Positions 404 to 62,400 of a DNA stretch of 64,000 nucleotides are shown in pieces. Made by a program: the position numbers and the translations under genes. Under the pieces are notes generated by a model. It made no database searches and was not told the DNA's origin. It saw nothing but the letters and a program-made list of their open reading frames with translations. Within the stretch, counting starts at the first letter, position 1. Each line of letters starts with the position of its first letter. Origin of the DNA: Bolinopsis microptera (Eukaryota; Ctenophora; Tentaculata; Lobata; Bolinopsidae); NCBI RefSeq assembly GCF_026151205.1, contig NC_087084.1, forward strand, positions 15,578,322 through 15,642,321, read 5' to 3'.

Positions 404-660
404 TAATATAATGAATATCTTATAAAACATGTTAGATTGCAGGCACTATCTAATGTAATGAATATCTCATTAAACATGTTAGATTGTAGGCACTATCTAA
501 TGTAATGAATATCTCATTAAACATGTTAGATTGCAGGCACTAACATGTTACTATCTAATATAATGAATATCTCATTAAACATGTTAGATTGCAGGCTATC
601 TAATATAATGAATATCTCATTAAACATGTTAGATTACAGATAAAACATGTTAGATTACAG
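404..660. repeat. 45- to 50-bp repeat carrying a copy of the downstream exon's acceptor
   Basis: About five imperfect units read ATCTAATATAATGAATATCT followed by CATTAAACATGTTAGATTGC and AGGCACT. The GCAGGCACTAAC segment matches the real acceptor region at 691-702 (TACAG|GCACTAAC), so the splice acceptor has been copied upstream several times. Confidence 0.75.
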
Positions 661-695
661 GCATGGTAACTACACTGTTACTATGGTAACTACAG

Positions 696-3600
696 GCACT
701 AACACCAAATGTCACAGATTAGAAACTAAGCTAGCGGATATTGTAATAAACCTAAAGGCAACACTAGACGAGATAAAAACGCACACTGCGCGCGAGAAGT
801 ACAAGTCCCAGGTGCTGGGCTGCTTGCGCGCGTGGCGGGAATGGAACGTGTATAGTCCTGATTATCTCGCACAACTGGACATTATCTTCGCTGGAGGCAA
901 GAGTAAAGAGGTAAATAGAAAGAGACATTTCTAAACAGGAATTAGGTCTGATTATAACGTCACTCCCCTTCTGGCTCCCCACTAAAGTTAACCTCTTTAT
1001 ATCTGCTGCACCCTTAACCCCCACCTCTTTATATCTGCTGCACCCTTAACCCCCACCTCTTTATATCTGCTGCACCCTTAACCCCCACCTCTTTATATCT
1101 GCTGCACCCTTAACCCCCACCTCTTTATATCTGCTGCACCCTTAACCCCCACCTCTTTATATCTGCTGCACCCTTAACCCCCACCTCTTTATATCTGCTG
1201 CACCCTTAACCCCCACCTCTTTATATCTGCTGCACCCTTAACCCCCACCTCTTTATATCTGCTGCACCCTTAACCCCCACCTCTTTATATCTGCTGCACC
1301 CTTAACCCCCACCTCTTTATATCTGCTGCACCCTTAACCCCCACCTCTTTATATCTGCTGCACCCTTAACCCCCACCTCTTTCTATCTGCTGCACCCTTA
1401 ACCCCCACCTCTTTATATCTGCTGCACCCTTAACCCCCACCTCTTTCTATCTGCTGCACCCTTAACCCCCACCTCTTTATATCTGCTGCACCCTTAACCC
1501 CCACCTCTTTATATCTGCTGCACCCTTAACCCCCACCTCTTTACATCTGCTGCACCCTTAACCCCCACCTCTTTATATCTGCTGCACCCTTAACCCCCAC
1601 CTCTTTATATCTGCTGCACCCTTAACCCCCACCTCTTTATATCTGCTGCACCCTTAACCCCCACCTCTTTCTATCTGCTGCACCCTTAACCCCCACCTCT
1701 TTATATCTGCTGCACCCTTAACCCCCACCTCTTTATATCTGCTGCACCCTTAACCCCCACCTCTTTATATCTGCTGCACCCTTAACCCCCACCTCTTTAT
1801 ATCTGCTGCACCCTTAACCCCCACCTCTTTATATCTGCTGCACCCTTAACCCCCACCTCTTTATATCTGCTGCACCCTTAACCCCCACCTCTTTATATCT
1901 GCTGCACCCTTAACCCCCACCTCTTTCTATCTGCTGCACCCTTAACCCCCACCTCTTTATATCTGCTGCACCCTTAACCCCCACCTCTTTATATCTGCTG
2001 CACCCTTAACCCCCACCTCTTTATATCTGCTGCACCCTTAACCCCCACCTCTTTATATCTGCTGCACCCTTAACCCCCACCTCTTTCTATCTGCTGCACC
2101 CTTAACCCCCACCTCTTTATATCTGCTGCACCCTTAACCCCCACCTCTTTATATCTGCTGCACCCTTAACCCCCACCTCTTTCTATCTGCTGCACCCTTA
2201 ACCCCCACCTCTTTATATCTGCTGCACCCTTAACCCCCACCTCTTTCTATCTGCTGCACCCTTAACCCCCACCTCTTTATATCTGCTGCACCCTTAACCC
2301 CCACCTCTTTATATCTGCTGCACCCTTAACCCCCACCTCTTTCTATCTGCTGCACCCTTAACCCCCACCTCTTTATATCTGCTGCACCCTTAACCCCCAC
2401 CTCTTTATATCTGCTGCACCCTTAACCCCCACCTTGCTACCAGGTAGATGTAGATGAGGTAGATGGGGTCCCACTAGATGTAGATGGTGTGCCCCTAGCT
2501 AAGTTAACCTCTTTATATCTGCTGCACCCTTAACCCCCACCTCTTTATATCTGCTGCACCCTTAACCCCCACCTCTTTATATCTGCTGCACCCTTAACCC
2601 CCACCTCTTTATATCTGCTGCACCCTTAACCCCCACCTCTTTCTATCTGCTGCACCCTTAACCCCCACCTCTTTATATCTGCTGCACCCTTAACCCCCAC
2701 CTCTTTATATCTGCTGCACCCTTAACCCCCACCTCGCTACCAGGTAGATGTAGATGAGGTAGATGGGGTCCCGCTAGATGTAGATGGTGTGCCCCTAGCT
2801 AAGGATGTGGACGGGGAACCACTGGCTGATCCTGAGGAAGAAGATGAGGACATGTTTGATATGACTCCCAAGAAAAAGTAAGTTTTGTGTTTACTCGTGA
2901 TGCCCATAATTTGTTATATACTGATTACATGTGACGCCCATATTTGGTAATATTTTGTTGGCACGTGATGCCCATATATGGTAACATTGTTGTGTTTAGT
3001 GTGTCGAAGGCGCCCCCGATAAAGTCTAAATGGGAAGATGCGGGCCCCTCGCTGGGTTCTAAATGGGAAGAAAGTAGCACAGCCCCTTCTCTGGGGTCCA
3101 AGTGGGAGAGCAATGAACCGGCTAAGAAGAACTTGGAGAGTAGCTCTAAATCTAGTGACGAGAAGAGGAAAAAGAAGAGGGAAATTGAGGTAAGAATATT
3201 TTATATGGGTAATCTTATTCATAATTTTAAAAGTGATAATTCTAAGTTATAAATGTAAGAAAGTTTAGCTTTTTATTTATCTGGTAAGTAATTAGGAGTT
3301 TGTAACTTACTGAATATGTACACAAACAGTTTGTGTGCATATTCAGTAAGTTAATAACAGTAAGGTAAGTGTACTGTTATTTGATACTATCAATTTATTC
3401 CCATGCTACATACTATATATATATAGTTTATATATAGTTTTAATACTTTCAACACTACTATATAACAAATAATTTGAGAATGAGACATGTAAAGATTACA
3501 CAATCGATAGCTTAATGTGAATTTCGTGTTTTACTGTTTCACTGAATGTCTCAAATATATATATATAATACTATATAATAATACACTTGCACTATACTTA

Positions 3601-4811
3601 AAAACTATATAATACCCTTCTCCAGGTGAAAGTAGCAGAGTATATCGACAAGTTAGAATCAGGGAAATGCACCAGAATAAAACAGATAACAACAAATGAG
3701 CAGGCTGAAATATACAGATATCTCCTTTGTAAGGTAACCATAACAACACAGCATTATAGATTTTATATTCAATAAAATCATTAACACTCGATATTAAACG
3801 TTAGTTACGTTAGACTTGTTAATGTTTATACATGTTAAGTTACTTACTATTTATACATGTTAAGTTACTAACTATTTATACATGTTAAGTTACTTACTAT
3901 TTATACATGTTAAGTTACTAACTATTTATACATGTTAAGTTACTAACTATTTATACATGTTAAGTTACTTACTATTTATACATGTTAAGTTACTTACTAT
4001 TTATACATGTTAAGTTACTTACTATTTATACATGTTAAGTTACTTACTATTTGTACATGTTAAGATACTTACTATTTATACATGTTAAGTTACTTACTAT
4101 TTATACATGTTAAGTTACTTACTATTTATACATGTTAAGTTACTTACTATTTATACATGTTAAGTTACTTACTATTTATACATGTTAAGTTACTAGTACT
4201 ATTTATACATGTTAAGTTACTTACTATTTATACATGTTAAGTTACTTACTATTTACACATGTTAAGTTACTTACTATTTATACATGTTAAGTTACTTACT
4301 ATTTATACATGTTAAGTTACTAACTATTTATACATGTTAAGTTACTCACTATTTATACATGTTAAGTTACTCACTATTTATACAATAATATATGTTAAGT
4401 TACTTACTATTTATACATGTTAAGTTACTTACTATTTATACATGTTAAGTTACTAACTATTTATACATGTTAAGTTACTTACTATTTATACACGTTAAGA
4501 TATCAATCTTACTGTAAATCTAACATATCATGAAATGTTTGTGTGTTCAGGGAAAGGACGCTAAGAAGACGATAAAGCACATAGCAACAGGTAGAGAGAG
4601 TCTAACAGACCTACAAAGTGAGATGAAAAGTAAGCCTCTCAGTTCTCCTATTATCAGTGGTAAACTAGCCGGGTTAGGAGGTCTGGTTAGTTACGGCTCC
4701 TCCCCCACTTCCTCCCCCTCTCCTGAACTAAAGAGAAGACGAGAACATTCCGACAAGAAGAAACGATCAGCCAGCCCAAAACACGAGAGAAAGAAGAAGT
4801 CGAGACACTGA
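696..4811 (+). CDS. U2SURP: U2SURP/SR140-like U2 snRNP-associated SURP protein, 3' part (5' exons lie left of the window)
   Basis: Five exons join in frame: 696-910, 2744-2877, 3000-3189, 3626-3733 and 4551-4811, ending in TGA. The first encodes the end of the CTD-interacting (CID) domain (FETKL-like LETKLADI, then CLRAWREWNVYSPDYL and IIFAGG). The second carries the DVDGVPLD/DVDGEPL repeats typical of this protein. The third has three SKWE motifs and a KKKREIE run. The fourth is a short helix beginning VKVAEYIDKLESGK. The last is a basic Ser/Arg/Lys tail ending KKKSRH. The family works with the U2 snRNP in branch-site recognition. The first acceptor could instead be at 717/718, because the region is repetitive. 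Introns 1 and 4 are almost wholly tandem repeat. Identification is from family knowledge and is firm. Confidence 0.88.
986..2735. repeat. 33-bp minisatellite in U2SURP intron, interrupted by a partial exon copy
   Basis: Unit CCTCTTTATATCTGCTGCAC followed by CCTTAACCCCCAC, about 50 copies, with recurrent single changes (TTTCTATCT for TTTATATCT). The pyrimidine-rich strand is the sense strand, so the array is effectively a very long polypyrimidine tract before the acceptor at 2743/2744. It is interrupted at 2433-2505 by a copy of the first 60 bases of the following exon. Confidence 0.93.
3302..3353. repeat. 52-bp near-perfect inverted repeat (hairpin)
   Basis: The arm TAACTTACTGAATATG pairs with CATATTCAGTAAGTTA around a short centre, with one or two mismatches. 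It lies in a U2SURP intron. It could be a small MITE remnant or a stem in the pre-mRNA; no terminal duplication was recognised. Confidence 0.8.
3838..4495. repeat. 25-bp minisatellite, about 26 copies, in last U2SURP intron
   Basis: Unit TTATACATGTTAAGTTACTT plus ACTAT, with a few point variants and one larger-spaced copy near 4382. It fills most of the intron between the exons ending at 3733 and starting at 4551. No exon edge is recognised in the unit. Confidence 0.92.
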
Positions 4812-5513: not shown

Positions 5514-8500
5514 ATGGTGTCCCACAAGGCTGGGCCTCTCAAGCAGACTAAGAAGGCGCACAAACACGGTAAACACAGATCTAAAGGCTCCCTGTCAGCT
5601 AAAGGTAAAGCTGGTGTATTATCTGGTAATGGCAAGTCTGGGGTGTCTACTCTCAACAAGAAGGACAGGTTGGTTTTTAGTTAATTACAATTTACATTAG
5701 TTAATTAGTATTTACAGAAGTTAATTACTATTTACAGTAGTTAATTACTATTTACAGTATTTATATAGTTGATAGTATTTACACAAGTTTAAAACAATGT
5801 TCTACCCCGTGACTGTGCAACGGACAGATTAAAACAGTTTCTAGAATTTACCCATATAAGGTAATACTTAGTGCACACGTGATGCCCATATAAGGTAATA
5901 CTTAGTGCACACGTGATGCCCATATAAGGTAATATTGTGTAGGAAGAACATGGAGAAGCAGCTAAAGAAAGTGAAAGTAGTGAGCAATGCAGCGGAGAAG
6001 AGAGGGTTAGGGGGGTCAGGACACCCTCCTATATGTGTAGTGTTGTTACCTGCCCACTCAGGGGTAGACCTGACAGAGGCACTACAGTTACTGAGACAAC
6101 AGGGCGAGGTCCACTCTCAATCTAGTAACTCCTTCTACTTACTCAATACTAAACTAAAGAAACGGTTAGTTTTATAATGATGTTCGTGATTTGTAAAGCA
6201 TCTTTTTGATCCACTATACCACAAATCCCACTTAAAAACAAGCCCAGTGTACAGTGTTACCATGACAACAGTGTGTTACCATGGCAACAGTGTACACTCT
6301 GTTACTAGAGAAAGTGTTTTTTTAATTAATTGTATTTTCAGGTTACAAGTTGTGTGTCCAGGAGAGGGTATATTAGATCAGTTAGACACTGTGAAATGTG
6401 CTGATCTGGTGGTGCTGGTGTGGGACTCCTCGTTTAGCATAGACCCTCTATTGCGCACCTGTCTGTTTGCACAAGGTAACGTTTAGCATAGACCCTCTAT
6501 TGCGCACCTGGGGTTTGCGCAAGGTAACGTTTAGCATAGACCCTCTATTGCGCACCTGTCTGTTTGCGCAAGGTAACGTTTAGCATAGACCCTCTATTGC
6601 GCACCTGTCTGTTTGCGCAAGGTAACAGTTAGCATAGACCCTCTATTGCGCACCTGTCTGTTTGCGCAAGGTAACAGTTAGCATAGACCCTCTATTGCGC
6701 ACTTGTCTGTTTGCGCAAGGTAACGTTTAGCATAGACCCTCTATTGCGCACCTGTCTGTTTGCGCAAGGTAACGTTTAACATAGACCCTCTATTGCGCAC
6801 CTGTCTGTTTGCGCAAGGTAACGTTTAGCATAGACCCTCTATTGCGCACCTGTCTGTTTGCGCAAGGTAACGTTTAGCATAGACCCTCTATTGCGCACCT
6901 GTCTGTTTGCGCAAGGTAACGTTTAGCATAGACCCTCTATTGCGCACCTGTCTGTTTGCGCAAGGTAACGTTTAGCATAGACCCTCTATTGCGCACCTTC
7001 TGTTTGAGCAAGGTAACGTTTAGCATAGACCCTCTAATCTCTATTGCGCACCTGTCTGTTTGCGCAAGGTAACGTTTAACATAGACCCTCTATTGCGCAC
7101 CTGTCTGTTTGCACAAGGTAACGTTTAGCATAGACCCTCTATTGCGCACCTGTCTGTTTGCGCAAGGTAACGTTTAACATAGACCCTCTATTGCGCACTT
7201 GTCTGTTTGCACAAGGTAACGTTTAGCATAGACCCTCTATTGCGCACCTGCCTGTTTGTGCAAGGTAACGTTTAGCATAGACCCTCTATTGCGCACCTGT
7301 CTGTTTGCGCAAGGTAACGTTTAACATAGACCCTCTATTGCGCACCTGTCTGTTTGCACAAGGTAACATTTAGCATAGACCCTCTATTGCGCACCTGTCT
7401 GTTTGCACAAGGTAACGTTTAGCATAGACCCTCTATTGCGCACCTGTCTGTTTGCGCAAGGTAACGTTTAACATAGACCCTCTATTGCGCACCTGTCTGT
7501 TTGCACAAGGTAACGTTTAGCATAGACCCTCTATTGCGCACCTGCCTGTTTGTGCAAGGTAACGTTTAGCATAGACCCTCTATTGCGCACCTGTCTGTTT
7601 GCGCAAGGTAACGTTTAACATAGACCCTCTATTGCGCACCTGTCTGTTTGCGCAAGGTAACGTTTAACATAGACCTCTATTGCGCACCTGTCTGTTTGCA
7701 CAAGGTAACGTTTAGCATAGACCCTCTATTGCGCACCTGCCTGTTTGTGCAAGGTAACGTTTAGCATAGACCCTCTATTGCGCACCTGTCTGTTTTGCGC
7801 AAGGTAACGTTTAACATAGACCCTCTATTGCGCACCTGTCTGTTTGCACAAGGTAACATTTAGCATAGACCCTCTATTGCGCACCTGTCTGTTTGCACAA
7901 GGTAACGTTTAGCACATCTTTCACTCCACGGAAGGTTACTTCCCTCTCACGTTGATTCGTTTTGTTCCTTTTTATAACATACTTTTTCACTGTATTGTAA
8001 TATTTCACAGGGTTACCACCAGTACAGCATATAGTTATGCAGCTCGGACAGAGTTTCAGTGATAAAGAGTTCAATATCCAGAAGAAACAGTTCAGTGAAA
8101 TTCTACAAAAGAACAATTTTAGTATAAATAATTCTAAGGTAAGTAGTAGTAGTAGTAGTAAGGTAATTTCGCTAATTTTCATTAAACGTTTCAAGCTCAG
8201 TTACCTCTCATTGCTCAGTAATGATTTATAGCTTAAAACGAGGAGCATACCTTAACATCCTAGAAATGGTAGCTTGTATAATGGTTACGTTACTACGGTT
8301 ACTATCGCGCAGGTACAGTACATGAGACAGGCCAGTGATTTTGACAATGTGCTCTGGGGACTAGTGAACTTTAAACACCACACTCTGGGATTCCTGAAGG
8401 ACCGGGGTTATCTAATAACTAGCAGTGTGGAGATGCAGGATACTGGACCGGAGACAGGAACTCTAGTGGTCCGGGGGTTCCTCAGGGGTCAGGGCTTGGA

Positions 8501-11500
8501 CCCAGATCAGCTTCTTCATATACCCGGACAAGGGCACTTCAGAATAAGCAGGATTGTTACCTCTCCTGACCCCTTCTCTGAGAACTCAAATACTGTGAGT
8601 ACATATTGGGGCCGGGGGGGGGGGGGTTCTTTAACTGTTTTAACAATGAATGCTTATTCTCCTCTAATAATCCTCTTAATAAGATATGTTAAACTCATCT
8701 GTGTAATTACTATGTAGTACACTGTACAACACCTCGCAGGGAATAGTGTACGAGCCTAAGAACCCCGCCTCACTTGATATGGAGTGCGAAGTTAACGAGA
8801 TGGACGCCGAGCAGACCTGGCCTACAGAGGAGGACTACGAGCAGGCAGAGGAGGCTAAAAAACACACTAAACGAGTACCTAAAGGTAAGTTATAAAGTAA
8901 AAACACACTAAACGAGTACCTAAAGGTAAGTTATAAAGTAAAAACACACTAAACGAGTACCTAAAGGTAAGTTATAAAGTAAAAACACACTAAACGAGTA
9001 CCTAAAGGTAAGTTATAAAGTAAAAACACACTAAACGAGTACCTAAAGGTAAGTTATAAAGTAAAAACACACTAAACGAGTACCTAAAGGTAAGTTATAA
9101 AGTAAAAACACACTAAACGAGTACCTAAAGGTAAGTTATAAAGTAAAAACACACTAAACGAGTACCTAAAGGTAAGTTATAAAGTAAAAACACACTAAAC
9201 GAGTACCTAAAGGTAAGTTATAAAGTAAAAACACACTAAACGAGTACCTAAAGGTAAGTTATAAAGTAAAAACACACTAAACGAGTACCTAAAGGTAAGT
9301 TATAAAGTAAAAACACACTAAACGAGTACCTAAAGGTAAGTTATAAAGTAAAAACACACTAAACGAGTACCTAAAGGTAAGTTATAAAGTAAAAACACAC
9401 TAAACGAGTACCTAAAGGTAAGTTATAAAGTAAAAACACACTAAACGAGTACCTAAAGGTAAGTTATAAAGTAAAAACCTAACTGGTAAAGAGGTATAAT
9501 ATCATTTCTGTATATATATGTATTATGTGAGGTGTGAAGGAGTTAACCGTAGTGTTACTATTCAGGAACGTCAGCCTACCAAGCAGTGTGGATGTTATCA
9601 GATGACGAAGAAGAAGAAGAGAGTGGGATGGAAGATGAGGAAGACAGCGAGGAAGAGAGTGATGAGGAGGTAGAGGAGGAAGAAGAGACGGATTATTACA
9701 AGGTTTCTGTTGTTATTCACATTATTTTAAAAGATTTGGTTTGAAACTTTTTAAATTGTGGAAGAAGTATTATGGTGATACATCTGCTGGGTCCTCCAAA
9801 TAAGTATGTTAGACTCCAACAGTAAGGGTTAATACATTTAACGCTACTTCAGGATAGTGATAACTACGACGTGCACTTTGATGCAGAGGAAGAAGCAGAA
9901 GAGATGAGGAAGTTCAGAGAGGCATGTGAAGACGAACAGTTTCCCTGATGAGATGGATACACCTATTGACATGGCTGCTAGAATCAGATTCCAAAAGTAA
10001 GTCATCCTCATTATCCACTTAATTACCCACTTAATTACCCACTTAATTACCTACTTATAAAAATCATGTACTTCGTATGAAAGTTCGGTCCGGCAAGCAT
10101 AGAAAACACAGATGTCATTTCATATAATATTATGATACAAGAGAAACGCAACCTCAGAAGGAGGATTAGGACTCCTCGGACAACATATTATATAATATCT
10201 TTTGTATCGTCCTGGTTAAATATAATTACAAATAGAAATATCAAAAATATCTTTTCAAACGTTTTAGCTCCAGGTCCCACGACCCTAGTCACTGAAAATA
10301 TTAATGTCCCATCCTATACATTTAAAATTCTCACATCATAGGACCGGGACCTGCCCCTCGGTACTATCCAAAGTTTCGTTGACTGTTGATTGTTAAAGTA
10401 TGAATTTGAATTAGGATCTTTAACAGTGCAACTTGACCAGAGAAAGTGATCTGACTTAAAACGAAACCATGAAAACTCTACCTCTTGTGGGTCACACCTG
10501 TATCCTAAATGATAAAACCACTCAGGCATGTCTTCGTACTTGAAGGCGATTATGAGTGGTTCAGGTTCCTCCTGATCTCCCAATCTTTAAAGTTGTAGGT
10601 AAAGTTTAGCTGATTTCAAAGGACAGAAAAATATCGAAAGCATATGATGAGATACTAGTAGATAGCAGCAATAAACAGTGTGAAAACAACAGGGGAAATG
10701 CTGTTTTTACCTCAAGTTGGGTATTTGAAATCTGGTTCTTGATTTTAGGGTATAAGTAGAAGATACTCCTTTGGAATGTGTGGCTCCTTTATCAACACAG
10801 GCTGTATTCAGTCGTTACACATCTCCTGAGAAAAACAGTGCGCGGCGTGATTTAATTTGATGCCCCTATTCTACGGTCAACATGTAAAACGTTCGTTTAT
10901 GTAACGCGCTGATACTTATTATTGATAAAACGAAATTGGCTTTTCACATCTTCACGACAGGAGCCAGGCGCTTCGTGTAGATTTTACAATTCTCAAAATC
11001 TTGTATTTTTATCAATGCCTATGCTACTGTAATCAAATATAATACAATGTCAGTGTTACTGGTAATACATTAATTAGTGCAGAATGACAAGTTTATTTTC
11101 CGAAGTTATATATTAGTTCAACCTTTAACTCACAACTACCACAGGTACCGTGGACTGGCTAGTTTCCGCACGTCAGCATGGGATCCCCAAGAGAATCTAC
11201 CCAGAGACTACGCCCGCATCTCTCAGATCAGGAACTTTAGACATGTCAGAAAGTCCCTGCTACGTCAAAGCAACACCGAGAAACCAGTCCAAGCGGGCGC
11301 CCACGTGGACATCTACATCTCCGAGGTACCTCTCTCTCTACGGGACAGCACCAGCAGTACCTATAACTCTCTTCTCTCTCCTCCCCCACGAGCAGAGACT
11401 CAGTGTACAGCACGTAGCACAAGCTAGACACCCCCTCTCTACAGGTACAGTGAAAGGTAAAGAACAGCTGCTGGCTCAGGTGGGATTCAGGAGATATGTG

Positions 11501-14041: not shown

Positions 14042-17000
14042 CTGAAACAGGGAATATTAGGTTACTTGGTATCCACTAAAACAAGATATCAACATCTGTA
14101 TTTTGTGTAGATGGTTTGTTTTGTCCCCCCCCTCCCAGTCCCCTCAGTCCCCTCCCCCGGCCCCCACTCACCTTATCCTTGATGAACTTGAGACTCCTCC
14201 TAATGTCCCCCTCCCAGTCCCCCGGCCCCCACTCACCTTATCCTTGATGAACTTGAGACTCCTCCTAATGTCCCCCTCCCAGTCCCCCGGCCCCCACTCA
14301 CCTTATCCTTGATGAACTTAAGACTCCTCCTAATGTCCCCCTCCCAGTCCCCCGGCCCCCACTCACCTTATCCTTGATGAACTTGAGACTCCTCCTAATG
14401 TCCCCCTCCCAGTCCCCCGGCCCCCACTCACCTTATCCTTGATGAACTTGAGACTCCTCCTAATGTCCCCCTCCCAGTCCCCCGGCCCCCACTCACCTTA
14501 TCCTTGATGAACTTAAGACTCCTCCTAATGTCCCCCTCCCAGTCCCCCGGCCCCCACTCACCTTATCCTTGATGAACTTGAGACTCCTCCTAATGTCCCC
14601 CTCCCAGTCCCCCGGCCCCCACTCACCTTATCCTTGATGAACTTGAGACTCCTCCTAATGTCCCCCTCCCAGTCCCCCGGCCCCCACTCACCTTATCCTT
14701 GATGAACTTGAGACTCCTCCTAATGTCCCCCTCCCAGTCCCCGGCCCCCACTCACCTTATCCTTGATGAACTTGAGACTCCTCCTAATGTCCCCCTCCCA
14801 GTCCCCGGCCCCCACTCACCTTATCCTTGATGAACTTGAGACTCCTCCTAATGTCCCCCTCCCAGTCCCCGGCCCCCACTCACCTTATCCTTGATGAACT
14901 TGAGACTCCTCCTAATGTCCCCCTCCCAGTCCCCGGCCCCCACTCACCTTATCCTTGATGAACTTGAGACTCCTCCTAATGTCCCCCTCCCAGTCCCCGG
15001 CCCCCACTCACCTTATCCTTGATGAACTTGAGACTCCTCCTAATGTCCCCCTCCCAGTCCCCCGGCCCCCACTCACCTTATCCTTGATGAACTTGAGACT
15101 CCTCCTAATGTCCCCCTCCCAGTCCCCCGGCCCCCACTCACCTTATCCTTGATGAACTTGAGACTCCTCCTAATGTCCCCCTCCCAGTCCCCGGCCCCCA
15201 CTCACCTTATCCTTGATGAACTTGAGACTCCTCCTAATGTCCCCCTCCCAGTCCCCCGGCCCCCACTCACCTTATCCTTGATGAACTTGAGACTCCTCCT
15301 AATGCCCCCCTCCCAGTCCCCGGCCCCCACTCACCTTATCCTTGATGAACTTGAGACTCCTCCTAATGTCCCCCTCCCAGTCCCCGGCCCCCACTCACCT
15401 TATCCTTGATGAACTTGAGACTCCTCCTAATGTCCCCCTCCCAGTCCCCCGGCCCCCACTCACCTTATCCTTGATGAACTTGAGACTCCTCCTAGTGTCC
15501 CCCTCCCAGTCCCCGGCCCCCACTCACCTTATCCTTGATGAACTTGAGACTCCTCCTAATGTCCCCCTCCCAGTCCCCCGGCCCCCACTCACCTTATCCT
15601 TGATGAACTTGAGACTCCTCCTAATGTCCCCCTCCCAGTCCCCGGCCCCCACTCACCTTATCCTTGATGAACTTGAGACTCCTCCTAATGTCCCCCTCCC
15701 AGTCCCCCGGCCCCCACTCACCTTATCCTTGATGAACTTGAGACTCCTCCTAATGTCCCCCTCCCAGTCCCCCGGCCCCCACTCACCTTATCCTTGATGA
15801 ACTTGAGACTCCTCCTAATGTCCCCCTCCCAGTCCCCCGGCCCCCACTCACCTTATCCTTGATGAACTTGAGACTCCTCCTAATGTCCCCCTCCCAGTCC
15901 CCCGGCCCCCACTCACCTTATCCTTGATGAACTTGAGACTCCTCCTAATGTCCCCCTCCCAGTCCCCCGGCCCCCACTCACCTTATCCTTGATGAACTTG
16001 AGACTCCTCCTAATGTCCCCCTCCCAGTCCCCCGGCCCCCACTCACCTTATCCTTGATGAACTTGAGACTCCTCCTAATGTCCCCCTCCCAGTCCCCCGG
16101 CCCCCACTCACCTTATCCTTGATGAACTTGAGACTCCTCCTAATGTCCCCCTCCCAGTCCCCGGCCCCCACTCACCTTATCCTTGATGAACTTGAGACTC
16201 CTCCTAATGTCCCCCTCCCAGTCCCCCGGCCCCCACTCACCTTATCCTTGATGAACTTGAGACTCCTCCTAATGTCCCAGTCCCCGGCCCCCACTCACCT
16301 TATCCTTGATGAACTTGAGACTCCTCCTAATGTCCCCCTCCCAGTCCCCCGGCCCCCACTCACCTTATCCTTGATGAACTTGAGACTCCTCCTAATGTCC
16401 CCCCTCCCAGTCCCCGGCCCCCACTCACCTTATCCTTGATGAACTTGAGACTCCTCCTAATGTCCCCCTCCCAGTCCCCCGGCCCCCACTCACCTTATCC
16501 TTGATGAACTTGAGACTCCTCCTAATGTCCCCCTCCCAGTCCCCCGGCCCCCACTCACCTTATCCTTGATGAACTTGAGACTCCTCCTAATGTCCCCCTC
16601 CCAGTCCCCCGGCCCCCACTCACCTTATCCTTGATGAACTTGAGACTCCTCCTAATGTCCCCCTCCCAGTCCCCCGGCCCCCACTCACCTTATCCTTGAT
16701 GAACTTGAGACTCCTCCTAATGTCCCCCCTCCCAGTCCCCCGGCCCCCACTCACCTTATCCTTGATGAACTTGAGACTCCTCCTAATGCCCCCCTCCCAG
16801 TCCCCCGGCCCCCACTCACCTTATCCTTGATGAACTTGAGACTCCTCCTAATGTCCCCCTCCCAGTCCCCGGCCCCCACTCACCTTATCCTTGATGAACT
16901 TGAGACTCCTCCTAATGTCCCCCTCCCAGTCCCCCACTCACCTTATACTTGATGAACTTGAGACTCCTCCTAATGTCCCCCTCCCAGTCCCCCGGCCCCC

Positions 17001-43088: not shown

Positions 43089-43589
43089 TACTTTAAATCT
43101 GGATAGAATTTATTCACAGCGTCAATACCACTTAAACAGTAAACACTGAAGAAACAATATGTGCGGAGTAAGAAGAAATCCTAATATAACATAACAGATT
43201 TGAACAGTTAGCATTTCAATTAAAAATGCCTGCAGGTAAATGAACAATATCCGACCAGAATGTAGCTGTAAATCTGTTACACTAACTGCAACACTGCAAC
43301 ACGGCTAAACATGGTGATTCGGAAGATACAGCACAATATATACTTAATAATATTAACCATTTCGTCTGTGCGGAAATGACTGCCAAAATACTGGAAGCAG
43401 AATAATAGACTTAAAATGACAGTAAAATAAAGTCTAACCTGACAAACAGTGTAGTAGCTGGAGATCAGGTAGGAGTAGCCACTAGTTCAAGACCACGTGA
43501 TGCCCTTATTAGGAAATATAGACAGTTTATTACTTGTTCTAATTAGCAGTTTCCAGTCAACCACGTGACAACCTTGCCTTGCTGCATGA

Positions 43590-48515: not shown

Positions 48516-50585
48516 CCCCCTCCTCCTCCTTATAGTTAACCACTATGTTCTTCAGTGTCTCCCCCCAACTAGTACTCTTCTTCTTCTTTAGAGTGTAGTA
48601 CTTGCACTGGAGCGCTACCTGGGCGATATCTTAGTGAGTACTTACTTATAATAACTATACTCATAACAAATATAAATAACTTATTATTATTAAGTAACTT
48701 ATTATAACTTATTATACTCTGTTTAAGTGAAAGTGTAGTACTGACCAGTAAAGAGTATTGTAGCGGTATCTGTAGCGCTACTACGTCTCTCTTGGCTTTC
48801 TTTGTTTTGTCCACCTTGTCAGTACTGAACCTCCCCTCGTATACCTGAGCACGTGTTATATCACGTGTTAAATTAAACATTGTCACGTCGCACGTGTTAT
48901 ATCACGTGTTATATCACGTGTTATATCACGTGTTATATCACGTGCTAAATTAGAGTAACCTTGAGTGAAGGGTTTGAGTCTGGGGCAGGAGGTTTAGTCT
49001 AACCTTGAGTGAAGGGTCTGAGTCTGGGGCAGGAGGTTTAGTCTAACCTTGAGTGAAGGGTCTGAGTCTGGGGCGGGAGGTTTAGTCTAACCTTGAGTGA
49101 AGGGTCTGAGTCTGGGGCGGGAGGTTTAGTCCAACCTTGAGTGAAGGGTCTGAGTCTGGGGCGGGAGGTTTAGTCTAACCTTGAGTGAAGGGTCTGAGTC
49201 TGGGGCGGGAGGTTTAGTCTAACCTTGAGTGAAGGGTTTGAGTCTGGGGCAGGAGGTTTAGTCTAACCTTGAGTGAAGGGTCTGAGTCTGGGGCGGGAGG
49301 TTTAGTCTAACCTTGAGTGAAGGGTCTGAGTCTGGGGCGGGAGGTTTAGTCTAACCTTGAGTGAAGGGTCTGAGTCTGGGGCGGGAGGTTTAGTCCAACC
49401 TTGAGTGAAGGGTCTGAGTCTGGGGCGGGAGGTTTAGTCTAACCTTGAGTGAAGGGTCTGAGTCTGGGGCGGGAGGTTTAGTCTAACCTTGAGTGAAGGG
49501 TCTGAGTCTGGGGCGGGAGGTTTAGTCTAACCTTGAGTGAAGGGTCTGAGTCTGGGGCGGGAGGTTTAGTCTAACCTTGAGTGAAGGGTTTGAGTCTGGG
49601 GCAGGAGGTTTAGTCTAACCTTGAGTGAAGGGTCTGAGTCTGGGGCAGGAGGTTTAGTCTAACCTTGAGTGAAGGGTCTGAGTCTGGGGCGGGAGGTTTA
49701 GTCTAACCTTGAGTGAAGGGTCTGAGTCTGGGGCGGGAGGTTTAGTCTAACCTTGAGTGAAGGGTTTGAGTCTGGGGCGGGAGGTTTAGTCTAACCTTGA
49801 GTGAAGGGTCTGAGTCTGGGGCGGGAGGTTTAGTCTAACCTTGAGTGAAGGGTCTGAGTCTGGGGCGGGAGGTTTAGTCTAACCTTGAGTGAAGGGTCTG
49901 AGTCTGGGGCGGGAGGTTTAGTCTAACCTTGAGTGAAGGGTCTGAGTCTGGGGCGGGAGGTTTAGTCTAACCTTGAGTGAAGGGTCTGAGTCTGGGGCGG
50001 GAGGTTTAGTCTAACCTTGAGTGAAGGGTCTGAGTCTGGGGCAGGAGGTTTAGTCTAACCTTGAGTGAAGGGTCTGAGTCTGGGGCGGGAGGTTTAGTCT
50101 AACCTTGAGTGAAGGGTCTGAGTCTGGGGCGGGAGGTTTAGTTTCCATGTAGATAGCCTCTCCGTTAAGTAACATGTCCTGCGTCTTCAGCTCCTCTTTA
50201 CTGAAACATTCTAGTGTTCATTTCCACTACAATACACAATACACCTGGCTAATCCACCAAACTAAAGTACCGATACAGTTATAGATACATCGGATCATCA
50301 AACTAGGACTGAGAATTTATAAACAATATCTAATAGAGGATCATTAGCTCTTGTAACTCTTAATATCTCGCTAACTGCTTGCAAAATATAGATTAAGTAT
50401 AATAATTGTATATAATATATATTATATTATAACAGTTACCATGATATTCTGACAGAGTACTTAGTATCCACACTTAGTTTTATAGTCTGTGTTTCAGCGA
50501 ACCTCCCTCCGTCCTCCTTGTAGCTGACTGCGGAGTTCCCTCCGTCCTCCTCTACTGATATCTCTATAAACAACACATTACTCAT
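48457..50585 (-). CDS. CNRIP1: CNRIP1-like (cannabinoid receptor-interacting protein 1 family)
   Basis: Four exons, all phases consistent: 50585-50440, 50200-50104, 48844-48746 and 48618-48457, giving 167 residues (human CNRIP1 has 164). Start MSNVLFIEISVEEDGG; diagnostic DGGRFAETQTIKLSVDTKYS in exon 1 (compare the DGQRF..NRTIKL block), VYEGRFSTDKVDKTKK in exon 3, and LQCKYYTLKKKKSTSWGETL with NYKEEEG in exon 4; ends VKCRKIMPR. The fold is a small soluble beta-sandwich; in vertebrates it binds the C-terminus of CB1 receptors, but the role in a lineage that may lack CB1 is unknown. The start codon, exon 2 donor and stop codon all sit in tandem arrays. Confidence 0.82.
48849..48950. repeat. 18-bp E-box array upstream of CNRIP1 exon 3
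   Basis: About six copies of CACGTGTTATAT on alternate spacing directly upstream of the exon 3 acceptor (CACGTGCTCAG|GTATAC). Confidence 0.85.
48953..50145. repeat. 44-bp splice-donor minisatellite after CNRIP1 exon 2, about 27 copies
   Basis: Sense-strand unit: ACTAAACCTCCCGCCCCAGA, CTCAGACCCTTCACTCAAG, then donor GTTAG. It repeats the exon end encoding TKPPAPDSDPSLK with the donor. Variants are limited to GGGGCGGG/GGGGCAGG and TCTGAG/TTTGAG. Confidence 0.96.
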
Positions 50586-52280: not shown

Positions 52281-52289
52281 GCACCGCAA

Positions 52290-52632: not shown

Positions 52633-52637
52633 ACAGT

Positions 52638-55600
52638 TTATCTGTCCATGATATTAGCTGGTATTTTGGAGAGATAAAAGTCAAAGTCCCTCATTGTGGC
52701 AAGTACTCCCGTCTTGTTGGGATACGGCACATCTGCGTGGTAGAGAAGATCTTTACCAAACACGTCCGTCATTTTACCGCCCAGAGACTTTATTATAGCG
52801 TCACCAGCGCAGGTGTCCCACTTCTTAGTTCCTGTTATAGTGGCATTATAGTGGCATTATAGTGACATTATAGTGGCATTATAGTGGCATTATAGTGGCA
52901 TTTAGTGGCATTATAGTGGCATTTAGTGGCATTATGGCGGCATTATAGTGGCATTATAGTGGCAGTATAGTGGCATTATAGTGGAATTTAGTGGCATTAT
53001 AGTGGCATTTAGTGGCATTTAGTGGCATTATAGTGGCATTATAGTGGCATTTAGTGGCATTATAGTGGCATTATAGTGGCATTATAATGGCATTTAGTGG
53101 CATTATAGTGGCATTTAGTGGCATTATAGTGGCATTATAGTGGCATTTAGTGGCATTATAGTGGCATTATGGTGGCATTATGGTGGCATTATGGTGACAT
53201 TATAGTGGAATTATAGTGGCATAGAAAAAAAATAAAAAAAGTACTATACAAAACATTATCAAGTTGTTATAACTATTTTTATAACTAAATGTGCAACTAA
53301 CCAGGTGAAGCGAAGAGGTACGCGTCAGCAGTCCCCTCAATAACGAGAATACACTTGCTACCCGCCCCCCCTATCTGTATCAGCTTGTCGGGCTTACAGC
53401 TGTCTATTGCATCCTGAGAGGGTATTAGTTACACATGTATAATAGTGACTTATCAGGATGTCAGTTTGTGAGGACTTTACAGGTAAACTACTATTCTAAA
53501 TGTAGTTAGTTATTTGTTCTAACAAGCTAAAAAGAATGAACAATAAGGGGTCGTTCACATATTACGTAATCAAAATTGCTAAAATATTGATTACGTAATA
53601 TGTGAACGACTCCTAGCAGTACTTTAACGGGAGATAAGCTCCGCTTTACAGATAACAATATAACAATTATTAGTAAGTAACCTGCACTGATTTCTGCATG
53701 TGACTGCGTGTAGTTGTTATTATCTTACGTCCCTCCGGTACTGGAACTCTCTTGAAACCAAATGCTCCTAAACCAACCACGCCCCACAACGTGCGTCCTG
53801 TTTCTTTACCTAGCAACAATGTTATCAATAGTAGTGTTATCTACTGTTACCTAGCAACAATGTTATCAGTAGTAGTGTTATCTACTGTTACCTAGCAACA
53901 ATGTTATCAATAGTAGTGTTATCTACTGTTACCTAGCAACAATGTTATCAATAGTAGTGTTATCTACTGTTACCTAGCAACAATGTTATCAATAGTAGTG
54001 TTATCTACTGTTGCCTAGCAACAATGTTATCAATAGTAGTGTTATCTACTGTTACCTAGCAACAATGTTATCAATAGTAGTGTTATCTACTGTTACCTAG
54101 CAACAATGTTATCAATAGAAGTGTTATCTACTGTTACCTAGCAACAATGTTATCAATAGTAGTGTTATCTACTGTTACCTAGCAACAATGTTATCAATAG
54201 AAGTAGTAGTAGTAGTAGTACAATAGACACAATGTTATTAAGTCTTGAGTGAACCTCAGATTGTTTATAAGTTTGTATTTATTAATTATCTGTGACAACA
54301 CTCTACATAAAACACGGTTGCTATAGTAACACTCTACATAAAACACGGTTGCTATAGTAACTATAAACCCGGTTGCTATAGTAACACTCTACATAAAACA
54401 CGGTTGCTATAGTAACTATAAACACGGTTGCTATAGTAACTATAGACACGGTTGCTATAGTGACTATAAACAGTAACTTACCATCCACTTCATACCAGGG
54501 TTGCTATAGTAATATAACATGGTTGCTATAGTAACTATAAACAGTAACTTACCCTCCACTTCATACCAGGGCTGGTAGATAACTCCAGCTACCGCCTCCC
54601 CGTGAGCAGCTATCCCTATCAGCACTGTAACATCCTGCTTCCTTCCCTCAACATACTCCTTAGTGCCGTCTAGTGGGTCTACCTGTTATTGTACTTGTTA
54701 TTTTGCAATACATACTGTGATGTTCAGCAAGCTAACATATTATAAGTTTGTGCTTTTTATAAAAGCAACGTTTGACCTGTAAACAGTATTCCTACGAGGG
54801 GAGTAGGAGACACTTACATTCCTCTATAAGATGGAATGTAAGTGCCCCCCCCCCCCCCCCCCCCTGTAGTGAACTAACCCAAATAACAAGATCCTCCTCA
54901 TTAATACCGGCTAGTTTATCAGGACAGGAGTGTTCCATAACTTCACTGCTGGTATCCATGGTGATCAGACTCCTCGCCTCGTCTGTATCGTAGTCTATAT
55001 CGTCCTCTTCTCCTATTATAGTAGCCTGAATGTACCGTCATTTCACATTTTAATCAATCTAGTTTGAAAACCAAACTGCTAGGAATCAGAGAATTATAGT
55101 GGCCGTATCGTGGCCGTATATTGGCTGTATAAAGGCCGTAAGTGTTGTTATGGTAACAGTAGTGTTGTCATGGTAATAGTAGTGTTGTCATGGTAACAGT
55201 AGTGTTGTCATGGTAACAGTAGTGTTGTCATGGGTATACTCACCTTAGGGGAGTGTTTCATAAGACTAGTAACGATCAGGAGCTGAGCCTTCTTATCTGC
55301 CAAGGTCTGCAGATTGTTAATACCTCCCTTATCTACTATACCTAGATTACCTGCAAATCAACACTTTCAGTACTTAAAGTAACACAACTTTAACACAACT
55401 TTACTCCTTATACTATCAGTAAGAAATGTGGTCGAGTTAAAAACGTTATAATGCTATTCAAATTCTAATTTGAATCTACACGATTTACCAACATAAATAT
55501 CCATCTTACTGTTGCTGTTCCATACAAACAACAAACAAACAAGCTAAATAACACCACAGTATATATACAGCTGACAGTAGTGTTGTCATGGTAACAGTAG

Positions 55601-56457: not shown

Positions 56458-59400
56458 CTACATATCAGCAATGTTAGGTTTAGAAGAGACAGAGCTGGAA
56501 CAAGGGAAGAGCCAGAACAACTTGTTTCCTCTCCCAAATATGCGGAGCAGAGTCACGTGCACTCCCTCCTCTGCTCTAGTGACGAACATCACCTGCAGAT
56601 ACAGAGATATTTATGTTGTCATGGTAACAGTAGTGTTATCATGGTAACAGTAGTGTTGTCATGGTAACAGTAGTGTTGTCATGGTAACAGTAGTGTTGTC
56701 ATGGTAACATAGTATTTAGATTTAATTTGATTGATTGCTGGTTGGGGACCAGCTTTGCTTACTGGCCAATGTTTACTTCAAATATATACTATTATAGAAA
56801 CAAAATTAATGTAAAAAAGTAGCACAAAATACTTAATAACTCCCAATCTCTATATGACTGATAAATGATAAATGTGATTATTAATTAGGCAATATGTTAA
56901 AAGATAAAATATAAGTTATATAGAAATATAGAGATATTTGCTATATGGGACATAGACTTTTAGTTTTATATAAAACTAGGAGTATGTTTGCTATAATATA
57001 ACTTAAAATACTTAATGTTAAAGAGTAAACCTCTTTATAGAGAAAGTAAGCTAGGATAAGGAGAGAACTGAGACTCAGACCACAGCAGATAACACTGAAA
57101 CAATTTAATTAGTTTACATAATATTATCATAATCTATCAATTTAATCTTATATTTGATCCTTCGAACAGCTGTTGAGCAATGAAACGCAAACATAATCTT
57201 AGCAAAATGAATATATTTCTTTTATCTTCAGCATTTAATCAGTCACATAATCTGAGAATATCAATGGTTAGTTTGAAAATGTCAAAAATTCTCATCAAAA
57301 ATGTAGTAAAGTCTCAAAAAATTAATTTAGCATCTCGTAAAAATGGAATAGTTTAAAATCGGAACAAAATTAATCGCATATACTATAATAATGTGGAGTC
57401 TGCAGTAGTTCATTAACCCATTAGGGACGATAGGGTCGTTTTTATGACCCACCTTTTCTAGACGAAAAACCAAATTACTAAACGCTATAACGAATCTATA
57501 GCACATATACTCAAAATTTATTGGGCTTCATTATATGTAGCCCAATAAATTTTGAGCATATATGCTATAGATTCGTTATAGCGTTTAGTAATTTGGTTTT
57601 TCGTCTAGAAAAGGTGGGTCATAAAAACGACCCTATCGTCCCTAATGGGTTAAATCAAAAAGACGCAATTCAAAAATTGATAGACTGCATATATAAACAA
57701 AAAATGGACGATTTAAAAATAAAAATAAAAATAAAATTCGGGACACCATGAAAAATTAGCTTCCAGAAACGGAATTCACATTGTTCAGGCCAAACGGATA
57801 AAGTGTCTTCAATTTGTTAATATAAAACTGTTCTGACTTTCTAATATTATCTGGGGATGTAGAACACAAAATATCAAAATGGAAACTTTCATTGAAAACA
57901 GATCTCTCCCTCAAATTATGAACTGAAAAAAGATGTGCCCCTAAAACATTCTCGTCATCAAAATCTCTGTGGCTCTCAACATTCCCCTTACTACTCGCCT
58001 CTAAAATCTCATAATATTTACTGCGATGACCATTCACACGTTGGCTGAGGCTGGTGACTGTTTTTCCCACGTATACGTTATTAACAGTACAAAGTTTGCA
58101 TGTCGCGCCGTACACAATGTTGCGTGTCTTACAGTTACCACCTTGAGTTCTGACTGAGTGTCCATTATTGGAGACCATGGACTTGCCACTAACAAGGTGA
58201 CAAGTTTGGCAGGGTCTGCCTTTCTTCTTCTCACCAGGTTTGGTGCATGGGTCAGTTGTTCTTGACTCTGAACCTAAGGCAAGCTTCTTTCTCTTGAATA
58301 AAGTGTCCTTTAAGTTAGGGGCTCGCCTGGTCACCACTTGGAGTTTAGGGATCCTCTCAGGGTTCTCACTGCTCCATGTACGGCTATTTGAGATGATGTT
58401 ACTGGCCTCTTTAGCCTTTTCCTTGGTTTCCTCATAGCCCGCACCGAATGTAACAATCCATGGTGTGAAAGAAGGGGGACCCTGATCCTTTGCCTTGTAC
58501 TGTAAAGTTCTTGGTATCGATCTGACATCACTGATGACCTCTCTCACCATATCAGTAGGATATGAAGACCGTTCAAAAAACAACTGAAGCTCTGCCAATC
58601 TCTCATCCAGCAAGACGTCATCATTGATTATCCTTCTGTATCGAAGTGCCTGTGAGAAGACTATACTCCGGAAGGTATGTCGTGGATGGAAACTTGAGAA
58701 TTCTAGATACCTGTTGGCGTCAGTAGGTTTCCTAAACAGATCTGTTGTGAGTCTCCCTCCAACAAACTTGTACTGAATGTCCAGGAACTGAGTGAACTCC
58801 GTGATTGGTTTCACTTCGTATGTAATATCTAAGCCATAGTTATCAACCATCTTACTGCGTAATGACCCTACCCATTCTTCAAAACCAATCATAGAACCTC
58901 TCCACATACCTTGGCCCGAAATATCATCCACAAACCGATCAAGGTTCTTGAGCTCCTCTGGACTAACAACCGGGTCGTAAACCAGACTCTTTAGGACAAA
59001 GAACAAAGCAATGTTACCGCAATCCACTGAATTGATACCTCCAGTGGGTACACCGTTAACGACCTCATACCAGTTGTCTGCATTCTTCAAGACTGCCGAA
59101 TCAAAACTAAGCTGTATCAGTCCCTTCAGCCAAGTCCTGAACTCCTCAGACCAATCTGGTCTACACGACTCCATAGCATCATCTAAGGCTGACATCACAA
59201 AGCTATGTTGCAGAGAATCGTATAGAGAAACAATATCAATACTGAAGCTGATCCAAGTATCGACTACTTGTCCGGAAGCTGCCAATTCCTCGAGTTTTAT
59301 GAGAGCTGCAGTTGAATCTTTAACAAGATCTATACAGTAATCCCTGGCAAGAGGTCCCAACCACTTCCAAACAACAAACTTATCTGATCTTGCAGTTACT

Positions 59401-62400
59401 CCTCTAGAGAGATCAGTCACGAATCGACTGGGTGGAATCTTTTTCTCTCTAATTTCAGTCTCAGTCAGCTTGTGAATTTTCAGTAATGGGTAACCATACG
59501 GAATATCGGGCTTGACTAGATCTGAAGTGCTCTGTGAAAGAGTGTCCCGATCAGACTTCTGAATCAAACCAACCACACACTTAGACTGTTCACCACTTAC
59601 ATACTTCCGCTCCAAACCAGATGACCACAGCTCTAACAACCTCCCTCTCAAAGATCCAGTATATCAATTTAATATATCATTATAATACTTAGTCGACCCC
59701 ACAAAATCAAAAGTCATACCTCAAAATGGTTCAACAAGTCATGTAAATTAAAGATAGATAATATTTGGAACCTAGCACAGTTAGTAGTGAGTTTCAAGCC
59801 GACACACAGTGTGTAGGTAGAGAAGACCACGCCCCAGAATAGTAGCTGGATAAGGAACTTGTGGTTCAGTACCCCTACACAAGTACACATTGCAGACCAG
59901 TGTCCTCTAGAACGCACCAAACACCTGCAAACACATTGTTAGCTATCAGTAGTGTTGTCATGGTAACAGTAGTGTTGTCATTGTAACAGTAGTGTTGTCA
60001 TGGTAACAGTAGTGTTGTCATGGTAACAGTAGTGTTGTCATGGTAACAGCAGTGTTGTCATGGTAACAGTAGTGTTGTCATGGTAACAGTAGTGTTGTCA
60101 TAGTAACAGCAGTGTTGTCATGGTAACAGTAGTGTTGTCATGGTAACAGTAGTGTTGTCATGGTAACAGTAGTGTTGTCATAGTAACGGTAGTGTTGTCA
60201 TGGTAACAGTAGTGTTGTCATGGTAACAGTAGTGTTGTCATGGTAACAGTAGTGTTGTCATGGTAACAGTAGTGTTGTCATGGTAACAGTAGTGTTGTCA
60301 TGGTAACAGTAGTGTTGTCATGGTAACAGTAGTGTTGTCATGGTAACAGTAGTGTTGTCATGGTAACAGCAGTGTTGTCATGGTAACAGCAGTGTTGTCA
60401 TGGTAACAGCAGTGTTGTCATGGTAACAGTAGTGTTGTTATGGTAACAGTAGTGTTGTTATGGTAACAGTAGTGTTGTCATGGTAACAGTAGTGCTGTTA
60501 TGGTAACAGTAGTGTTATCATGGTAACAGTAGTGTTGTCATGGTAACCGCAGTGTTATCATGGTAACAGTAGTGTTGTCATGGTAACAGTAGTGTTGTCA
60601 TGGTAACAGTAGTGTTGTCATGGTAACCGCAGTGTTATCATGGTATCAGTAGTGTTGTCATGGTATTAGTAGTGTTGTCATGGTAACCGCAGTGTTATCA
60701 TGGTAACAGTAGTGTTGTCATGGTAACAGTAGTGTTGTCATGGTAACAGTAGTGTTGTCATGGTAACCGCAGTGTTATCATGGTATCAGTAGTGTTGTCA
60801 TGGTAACAGTAGTGTTGTCATGGTAACCGCAGTGTTATCATGGTATCAGTAGTGTTGTCATGGTATTAGTAGTGTTGTCATGGTAACCGCAGTGTTATCA
60901 TGGTAACAGTAGTGTTGTTATGGTAACAGTAGTGTTATCATGGTAACAGTAGTGTTCTCATGGTAACAGTAGTGTTGTCATGGTAACCGCAGTGTTATCA
61001 TGGTAACAGTAGTGTTGTCATGGTAACCGCAGTGTTATCATGGTAACAGTAGTGTTGTTATGGTAACAGTAGTGTTATCATGGTAACAGTAGTGTTCTCA
61101 TGGTAACAGTAGTGTTGTCATGGTAACCGCAGTGTTATCATGGTAACAGTAGTGTTGTCATGGTAACCGCAGTGTTGTCATGGTATTAGTAGTGTTGTCA
61201 TGGTAACCGCAGTGTTATCATGGTAACAGTAGTGTTGTTATGGTAACAGTGGTGTTATCATGGTAACAGTAGTGTTCTCATGGTAACAGTAGTGTTGTCA
61301 TGGTAACCGCAGTGTTATCATGGTAACAGTAGTGTTGTCATGGTAACCGCAGTGTTATCATGGTAACAGTAGTGTTGTCATGGTAACCGCAGTGTTATCA
61401 TGGTAACAGTAGTGTTGTCATGGTAACCGCAGTGTTATCATGGTAACAGTAGTGTTGTCATGGTAACAGTAGTGTTGTCATGGTAACAGTAGTGTTGTCA
61501 TGGTAACCGTAGTGTTGTCATGGTATTAGTAGAACGCACCAAACACCTGACAACACATTGTTAGTTACACTGAAATCTGCCATCAGGTATCATCAAACCT
61601 GGGCAACTTAAATCAGTATTCAGTACAAACTCACTCAAACTGTTTGGAATGTTTTATTTAACCTGATCATACATTATATGTATTGATAAAGTAGGTTTTA
61701 CCCATTACAAGTTGTGCAGTGTCTCGCTGTCGGAGAAGTGAATATTGAGCAAGATTTGCACACAACCCATGAGGACTTTGTACTTAAATTCTTTGAGAGA
61801 TCTGAAATGTAAGTTACATTAATTAACAGTGTAACCATGGTAACATAATGCTGCAAAACATCCTAAAACTCTTTTGAGCCTGAACAGTAAATAATGATAT
61901 ATATAACTTTCATGTTCATGCAATTGAAAACACTGTAACATTCAGATGGATTAATTCTATTAATTGTTTCACAAACTCTCTTCCTACCTGAAAAGTCAAC
62001 TGAGATTGTGGGTTTGGGAAGAAAACCAGGTCTGATGGTAATTAATCGAAGGAAAGATGATGCAGTCAATAGAAGAAACACATTAACAAAACTGGCATGC
62101 AGTGATAATTCCAGTTCTTTTCCCTAAAAAAACCAGCATTGAAATATAAATCAGTTTTTACAACATTTCAATTTCAATAATTAATGTTTAATGTTATTTA
62201 ATGTAAACCTCAATCTGACAAGGTTTTCACTGTCCCATTACTTTATTATTTGTGCATTATTTTAACTACAGTCTAGTTACACCAGTGTTTCCAATGTTTA
62301 ATGAAACTGACAAAAAGGATTCATCTCAATTATGTACCATAGTTGTGTTATAATTATTCATAGGTAAAGCGAATTATGTTACCTGTTATTCAACTAAATA

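Follow-up and report, generated by a model that had tools for sequence, protein, structure and literature searches.

Minisatellite-like repeats lying across exon-intron boundaries have been described in amphioxus under the name of mirages. They occupy 5′ as well as 3′ boundaries and many of their units carry AG/GT; the original report names Adh3 and the globin genes BflGb6 and BflGb9, and describes regular splicing together with length instability (PMC3087553). For lancelets, PGBD5 and TnC have been reported as additional examples (PMC3902484). The present study deals with such arrays in a ctenophore, in a stretch of 64,000 nucleotides of Bolinopsis microptera (assembly GCF_026151205.1, contig NC_087084.1, positions 15,578,322 to 15,642,321), hereafter called the window and numbered from its first letter. 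It carries the genes TRPM2, TSR1, CNRIP1 and BPNT1 and part of U2SURP. Our data support an association of arrays with the donor side of introns, observed in two independent sets, namely the window and gene regions outside it.

The arrays share several features with amphioxus mirages. Their units are of minisatellite size (31 to 65 bp, and 71 bp in one composite array), the unit spans an exon-intron boundary in 12 of 37 arrays of the window and in 6 of 123 arrays outside it, and both 5′ and 3′ boundaries are affected (14 donors and 4 acceptors). We assign them to the mirages, in this case from a ctenophore. In contrast to the amphioxus cases, they reach up to 148 copies and their placement was tested against a null. 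Furthermore, the amphioxus mirages are backed by splicing and instability data, whereas the arrays described here are known from the sequence of one assembly.

Boundary repeats are also known from humans. For the IFI6 (G1P3) minisatellite (Turri et al. 1995, as described in papers that cite it), the repeat units give donor sites at an exon end, with two downstream units reportedly serving as donors; in the ctenophore arrays, on the other hand, splicing from the second donor would run into a stop wherever this could be tested (see below). Human internal tandem repeats at exon-intron boundaries within segmental duplications are likewise of minisatellite size, and are reported to give rise to novel introns with alternative transcripts (PMC2812944). 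The potato RdRp gene, in which an intron is reported to have been gained by tandem duplication involving splice signals (PMC4974935), shares this kind of duplication; none of the 18 junction arrays found here holds both junctions of its intron. Among the matches listed by our literature searches, those on boundary repeats or mirages were amphioxus and human cases only, and those on ctenophore minisatellites or tandem repeats included no such case, in a search mostly without subscription papers that does not establish priority.

Array placement and splice junctions

The window set consisted of 37 intronic arrays in 47 introns of TRPM2, TSR1, CNRIP1, BPNT1 and the partial U2SURP model. Twelve of these arrays reach 4 to 45 nt into an exon, at nine donors and three acceptors, and since they reach into the exon, each unit carries a copy of the junction. 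The outside set comprised 23 myosin and dynein heavy-chain regions, picked without regard to arrays as a subset of all myosin and dynein matches in the 264.65-Mb genome assembly searched, with exon models built on reference proteins from the same genome. Introns adjoining a modelled exon of less than 35 nt were dropped, leaving 107 of 119 myosin introns (10 regions, 75 arrays) and 134 of 143 dynein introns (13 regions, 48 arrays); the dynein models D5 and D8, with one frameshift each, were retained. In total, 160 arrays were thus tested, 37 in the window and 123 outside. Array R5:9644, whose exon is uncertain, and the U2SURP exons upstream of position 718 were left out of the counts, and the Prp8 region (18 kb) and four samples of the window's own contig were used for array cover only. 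Tandem repeats were called with Tandem Repeats Finder (TRF), which returned 97 rows in 62 clusters for the window and placed 49% of it in arrays. An array was counted as spanning a junction when its TRF call overlapped a modelled exon by at least 3 nt. Distance limits and unit-length thresholds were set post hoc, and p-values are unadjusted throughout.

Gene models of the window were assembled from splice sites and reading frame. TRPM2 has 27 exons and 1485 codons with an open frame, BPNT1 has 7 exons and is open over 299 codons, CNRIP1 has 4 exons, and the partial U2SURP model has 5. TSR1 has 9 exons with a 1-base frameshift in exon 8, at about positions 9940-9955 of the plus strand, which could be an assembly error, an allele or gene decay. 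Pfam domains for TRPM, TSR1, CNRIP1 and inositol-phosphatase were found in the window. In a PDB search the BPNT1 model matched human BPNT1 (9.8e-99) and the TRPM2 model matched Nematostella TRPM2 (NvTRPM2; 6.2e-190), with a NUDT9-type domain at the C-terminus. These open frames and matches argue against the arrays being an artefact of misassembly or misplaced exons, as does an aligner control in which our custom spliced aligner, given the human BPNT1 chain, recovered 12 of 12 internal BPNT1 exon edges exactly. In the largest array, moreover, the 118 copies compared fall into 21 different unit types. The frameshifts in TSR1 exon 8, D5 and D8 do indicate that some base errors or variants exist, and each outside exon model is based on a single distant reference protein; on balance, we consider an artefact highly improbable.

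The earlier note on this DNA had argued that arrays placed at random would rarely include an exon edge. This argument fails because the introns, once their arrays are collapsed, are short (median 150 bp in the window, 197 bp in the dynein regions and 244 bp in the myosin regions). In our null, each array was collapsed to one unit and dropped at random, wholly exonic drops were removed, and a drop was taken as spanning with at least 3 exon nt and at least 2 intron nt. It predicts 16.0 spanning arrays among 160, and 18 were seen (p = 0.32), so that spanning arrays of all unit lengths are not in excess. The window alone has 12 of 37 against 9.4 expected (p = 0.20), and the outside set 6 of 123 against 6.6, with 2 of 75 against 2.8 in myosin and 4 of 48 against 3.8 in dynein regions. 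All six outside cases were inspected; dynein region D11 repeats 53 exon nt plus GTTAGTTTCCTC about 12 times, and the acceptor case in dynein region D6 is a diverged two-copy repeat. Neither do the arrays begin exactly at exon edges, as had been stated: those of the window reach into exons to the varying extent given above, and the exonic part of the unit varies in a way that fits a uniform distribution (KS p = 0.31, 18 arrays). No wholly exonic array was found in 42,827 nt of outside exon models.

Unit length separates the arrays further. With units of at least 25 nt, 18 of 49 arrays span a junction against 11.2 expected (p = 0.014), and with shorter units 0 of 111 do so against 4.8. Outside the window alone, the figures are 6 of 26 against 3.4 for units of at least 25 nt (p = 0.10) and 6 of 14 against 2.4 for units of at least 30 nt (p = 0.018). 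Compared with other arrays with units of at least 25 nt, junction arrays have more copies (median 11.3 versus 4.1, p = 0.026) and higher identity (97 versus 92, p = 0.003), from which a younger age is suspected. The unit length is a multiple of three in 1 of 18 junction arrays and in 0 of 14 donor arrays; avoidance of such lengths is not claimed, as other units of at least 25 nt are also low in this respect (6 of 31).

Whereas spanning alone matches chance, arrays that span a donor or start close behind it are in excess. For the distance test, the 142 non-spanning arrays were re-placed at random within their own introns in 2000 simulations. Eighteen of them begin no more than 10 nt behind the donor, where 6.1 were expected; none of the simulations reached this number. 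Starts are nearly absent 21 to 40 nt behind the donor (1 against 8.8 expected). On the acceptor side, 12 lie within 10 nt against 6.1 expected (p = 0.016). Since the distance tests show that array ends are non-random within introns, the view that array positions ignore junctions was dropped. Under the collapsed-intron null, 13.1 of the 160 arrays should span a donor or start within 10 nt of it, and 32 do so; the excess is present in the window (16 of 37 against 6.9, p = 0.0005) and outside it (16 of 123 against 6.1, p = 0.0003). A limit of 20 nt raises the count to 41 arrays, and the donor excess is stable for limits from 5 to 40 nt. The corresponding acceptor counts are 16 against 13.1 at 10 nt (p = 0.23) and 28 against 17.0 at 20 nt (p = 0.004). 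The 18 spanning arrays themselves divide into 14 donors and 4 acceptors (p = 0.031), one of the acceptors being ambiguous and one the diverged two-copy case; so few acceptor-spanning arrays have p = 0.085 by themselves. The link between arrays and junctions that the earlier note had drawn, and for which it had proposed a permutation of array positions, is therefore supported at the donor side and weakly at acceptors, in the window and the 23 outside regions, once near-donor arrays are counted. It holds for a reason other than the one first given.

Origin of the donor-side association

One account of these positions is that minisatellites arise by local duplication in very short introns and are then filtered by splicing. 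Local tandem duplication, through slippage or unequal exchange, would seed the arrays, and as introns are short relative to units of 30 to 65 bp, many duplications straddle a junction. Duplications within coding exons would be lost, as the near absence of exonic arrays suggests. A duplication across or just behind a donor could be tolerated, since the original exon-proximal donor would be transcribed first, and later copies would be intronic, with no change to branch point, pyrimidine tract or acceptor. Duplications deeper in a short intron or across the acceptor would disturb these signals and would probably be lost more often, and such loss would yield the donor pile-up, the gap at 21 to 40 nt and the 14:4 donor excess. 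Arrays may later expand and homogenise like other minisatellites. This account is supported by the agreement of the spanning counts with the random-drop null, together with an exonic share of the unit that fits uniformity. The predominance of donors among spanning arrays, the lack of arrays across both junctions of an intron or wholly within outside exons, the stops that would follow a second donor and the similar conservation of splice columns and other columns among copies point the same way. It is also supported by an array with a 59-bp unit at the coding end of CNRIP1 (47604-48515, minus strand), which covers the last 59 coding nt including the stop codon, so that a stop codon is spanned in the same manner as the junctions.

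A local origin is further indicated for two of the 18 junction arrays, those at the TRPM2 exon 24 and CNRIP1 exon 2 donors, because their units matched only the home locus in a genome search, one that can skip common words. In this respect they differ from introner-like elements. Introners, or the creation of introns by tandem duplication of an AG|GT site (the Rogers model), would fit the many units that carry AG|GT. We regard this explanation as having very little probability, given the single-locus units of the two tested arrays and, as noted, the lack of any junction array with both junctions of its intron.

Several observations weigh against local duplication with a splicing filter. Arrays spanning donors exceed expectation with all units (14 against 8.0, p = 0.025) and more so with units of at least 25 nt (14 against 5.6, p = 0.0006; outside, 5 against 1.7, p = 0.02). 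With acceptor-spanning arrays and the 40 nt preceding each acceptor excluded, the long units are still in excess (14 against 7.2, p = 0.005), and the value for all units is 14 against 10.0 (p = 0.11). In the window, 9 of 12 arrays with units of at least 25 nt and at least 8 copies span a junction against 4.0 expected (p = 0.003), the outside figure being 2 of 9 against 1.2. Under placement within their own introns, outside arrays begin no more than 10 nt behind the donor in 11 cases (3.4 expected, p = 0.0005), and the 55 introns with a single non-spanning array likewise show 11 such starts (4.6 expected, p = 0.003). At acceptors, a pile-up at 11 to 20 nt (12 against 5.3, p = 0.0055) is not predicted by a filter protecting the branch point and pyrimidine tract. 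Such a filter would need to act in long introns too, where room exists. The idea that abutting arrays are decayed spanning arrays was not supported, as their units resemble their own junction no better than other junctions (p = 0.30 for 27 donor-side and p = 0.59 for 24 acceptor-side arrays). In view of the distance tests, in which array ends are not random within introns, our confidence in local duplication followed by a splicing filter has come down from fairly good to an even balance.

The same donor pile-up raises the standing of a mutational process drawn to the exon-donor edge, for example where transcription stalls or RNA:DNA hybrids form close to the 5′ splice site, from rather improbable to a possibility that deserves serious attention, although we put it forward tentatively. 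It would account for the excess of arrays spanning or directly following donors in the combined and outside counts, for the persistence of the pile-up in the test with placement inside individual introns, and for the excess of long units across donors. Spanning arrays alone, however, match the null, the break points within spanning units look uniform, the distance limit and unit thresholds were chosen post hoc, and a selective filter can shape positions as well. Should it be correct, a process linked to transcription or splicing in this ctenophore lineage might preferentially duplicate DNA at the donor edge of exons or directly behind it. It would seed arrays at about 2.4 times the frequency expected from random placement and would continually yield runs of identical 5′ splice sites of which the spliceosome must pick the first. 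Between a mutational process and a selective filter in short introns as the cause of the donor bias, the data do not choose. If confirmed genome-wide, the donor-side pile-up would link the origin or persistence of repeats with the structure of genes, and would make the question of mutation or selection testable.

Junction arrays of the window and their splice-site copies

Nine donors of the window are spanned by arrays; TRPM2 exons are numbered here one lower than in the earlier note, whose numbers follow in brackets. In TSR1, on the plus strand, the exon 3 array (6431-7914) has about 30 copies of a 49-bp unit made of 45 exon nt and GTAA, and the exon 6 array (8858-9478) has 15 identical copies of a 41-bp unit with 27 exon nt. 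The remaining seven lie on the minus strand. The largest, at the donor of TRPM2 exon 24 (25), occupies 14153-23744 with about 148 copies of a 65-bp unit containing 43 exon nt by TRF. Exon 21 (22) has about 11 copies of a 37-bp unit with 24 exon nt (25119-25517), exon 11 (12) has 3.6 copies of a 31-bp unit with 8 exon nt (30034-30144), exon 10 (11) about 5 copies of a 53-59-bp unit with 30 exon nt (30449-30735), and exon 3 (4) 38 copies of a 37-bp unit with 13 exon nt (34223-35636). The donor of CNRIP1 exon 2 is spanned by 27 copies of a 44-bp unit composed of 39 exon nt and GTTAG (48956-50142), and that of BPNT1 exon 4 by composite 55/71-bp units with 19 exon nt (54297-54571).

The three spanned acceptors are also on the minus strand. 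TRPM2 exon 10 (11) carries an array at 30823-32240 with 33 copies of a 43-bp unit and 39 exon nt by TRF; by reading, the 43 bp consist of about 38 exon nt and CCCAG, with 31 copies of the acceptor core. At TRPM2 exon 16 (17), 13 copies of a 55-bp unit include 40 exon nt (27713-28429), but the choice of acceptor is ambiguous, with a variable linker and an in-frame AG just beyond the array that fits too. BPNT1 exon 5 has about 10 copies of a 41-bp unit with 4 exon nt (53806-54204).

These nine donors and three acceptors are what stands of 18 junctions named in the earlier note. Five others fall short of the 3-nt overlap. Two of the 11 named donors drop out, TRPM2 21 and 23 in the numbers used there: the array at donor 21 stops 1 nt short of the exon, though its units repeat CAG|GTAC, and that at donor 23 stops 6 nt short, with a slightly junction-like unit (rank 0.043 against other junctions). 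Of the seven acceptors, TRPM2 7 and 15 are likewise lost, their arrays ending 3 nt and 10 nt short of the exon (rank 0.028 against other junctions for the latter). At the ZDHHC-like gene, the array (59947-61532, minus strand) has a 20-bp unit that lacks the junction; the acceptor with about 17 exon nt is copied on both flanks, the second copy lying at the far end of the array outside the unit. The eighteenth junction, U2SURP 398-639, where the exon start is not fixed, stays undecided. Elsewhere in U2SURP, a duplication of about 300 bp (2444-2798, plus strand) holds two copies of acceptor and exon start, at 2444 and 2744. A 21-bp two-copy repeat in a U2SURP exon (2759-2798, plus strand), with a period that is a multiple of 3, is the sole wholly exonic array in the window models.

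The many copies raise the question of which splice site could be used. For each of the 13 testable donor arrays, splicing from the second donor would bring a stop after 1 to 35 codons; the BPNT1 exon 4 array is outside these 13, as its second copy differs in the core. Judged from the reading frames, therefore, the exon-proximal copy must be the spliced one if the genes work. With the exon-proximal copies, the frame stays open. This copy is the first transcribed in donor arrays and the last in acceptor arrays, being the last among the 31 core copies at TRPM2 exon 10. The median donor copy scores like the first copy in the 13 testable arrays. That the extra sites are functional and selected, as alternative donors or splicing enhancers, appears very unlikely to us. 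The GT is intact in every aligned copy of five donor arrays, and the repeat units of human IFI6 are described as used donor sites in the papers citing the original; yet conservation among copies is not significantly higher in the splice columns than in other columns (combined p = 0.11, 8 arrays), and the stops after the second donor speak against such use. The published Bolinopsis genome paper used Iso-Seq, and the copy in use could be read from these existing data. With up to 148 donor copies in one intron and 31 acceptor-core copies at one exon, the arrays constitute natural experiments on how the spliceosome chooses among equal sites.

Neighbouring observations

An open reading frame (ORF) of 635 codons with reverse-transcriptase-like motifs (57759-59663, minus strand) adjoins the ZDHHC-like gene. 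A Pfam search of this ORF returned no family at E up to 0.001; from its motifs, we presume that it resembles Penelope-like elements. Elsewhere in the genome, multi-exon paralogs have long open frames beside them, two for dynein heavy chains (3,357 and 3,703 codons) and one for TRPM (1,386 codons), at C3:8952495, C1:6101794 and C11:5324936, which suggests that these long frames are intronless retrocopies. For one of 32 glutamate receptor matches in this genome, the C-terminal ligand-binding part had PDB hits at E up to 1e-10 to two ctenophore receptors only, namely to chains of ML032222a, from Mnemiopsis, and to 4zdm. The genome's best counterpart of ML032222a shares 79% identity with it over 117 residues, which speaks against Mnemiopsis as the source.

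Many arrays of the window away from junctions contain short palindromes (for example GTTACCATGGTAAC, TGACGTCA and CACGTG), and similar motifs recur in different arrays. Palindrome-bearing arrays lie at 1-228, 35940-36151, 39027-39072, 42789-43087, 55141-55233, 56614-56713 and 59947-61532. We take these palindromes to resemble transcription-factor sites. In a 12-bp array with 279 copies (43587-46936), five reading frames, drawn from both strands, stay open for more than 1,100 codons, with no sign of a gene. In a sample of 4 kb, taken at a distance of 0.1 Mb from the window, a 42-bp array makes up 95% of the sequence (positions 1-3785 of the sample), and array cover ranges from 0 to 95% between the genome pieces compared.

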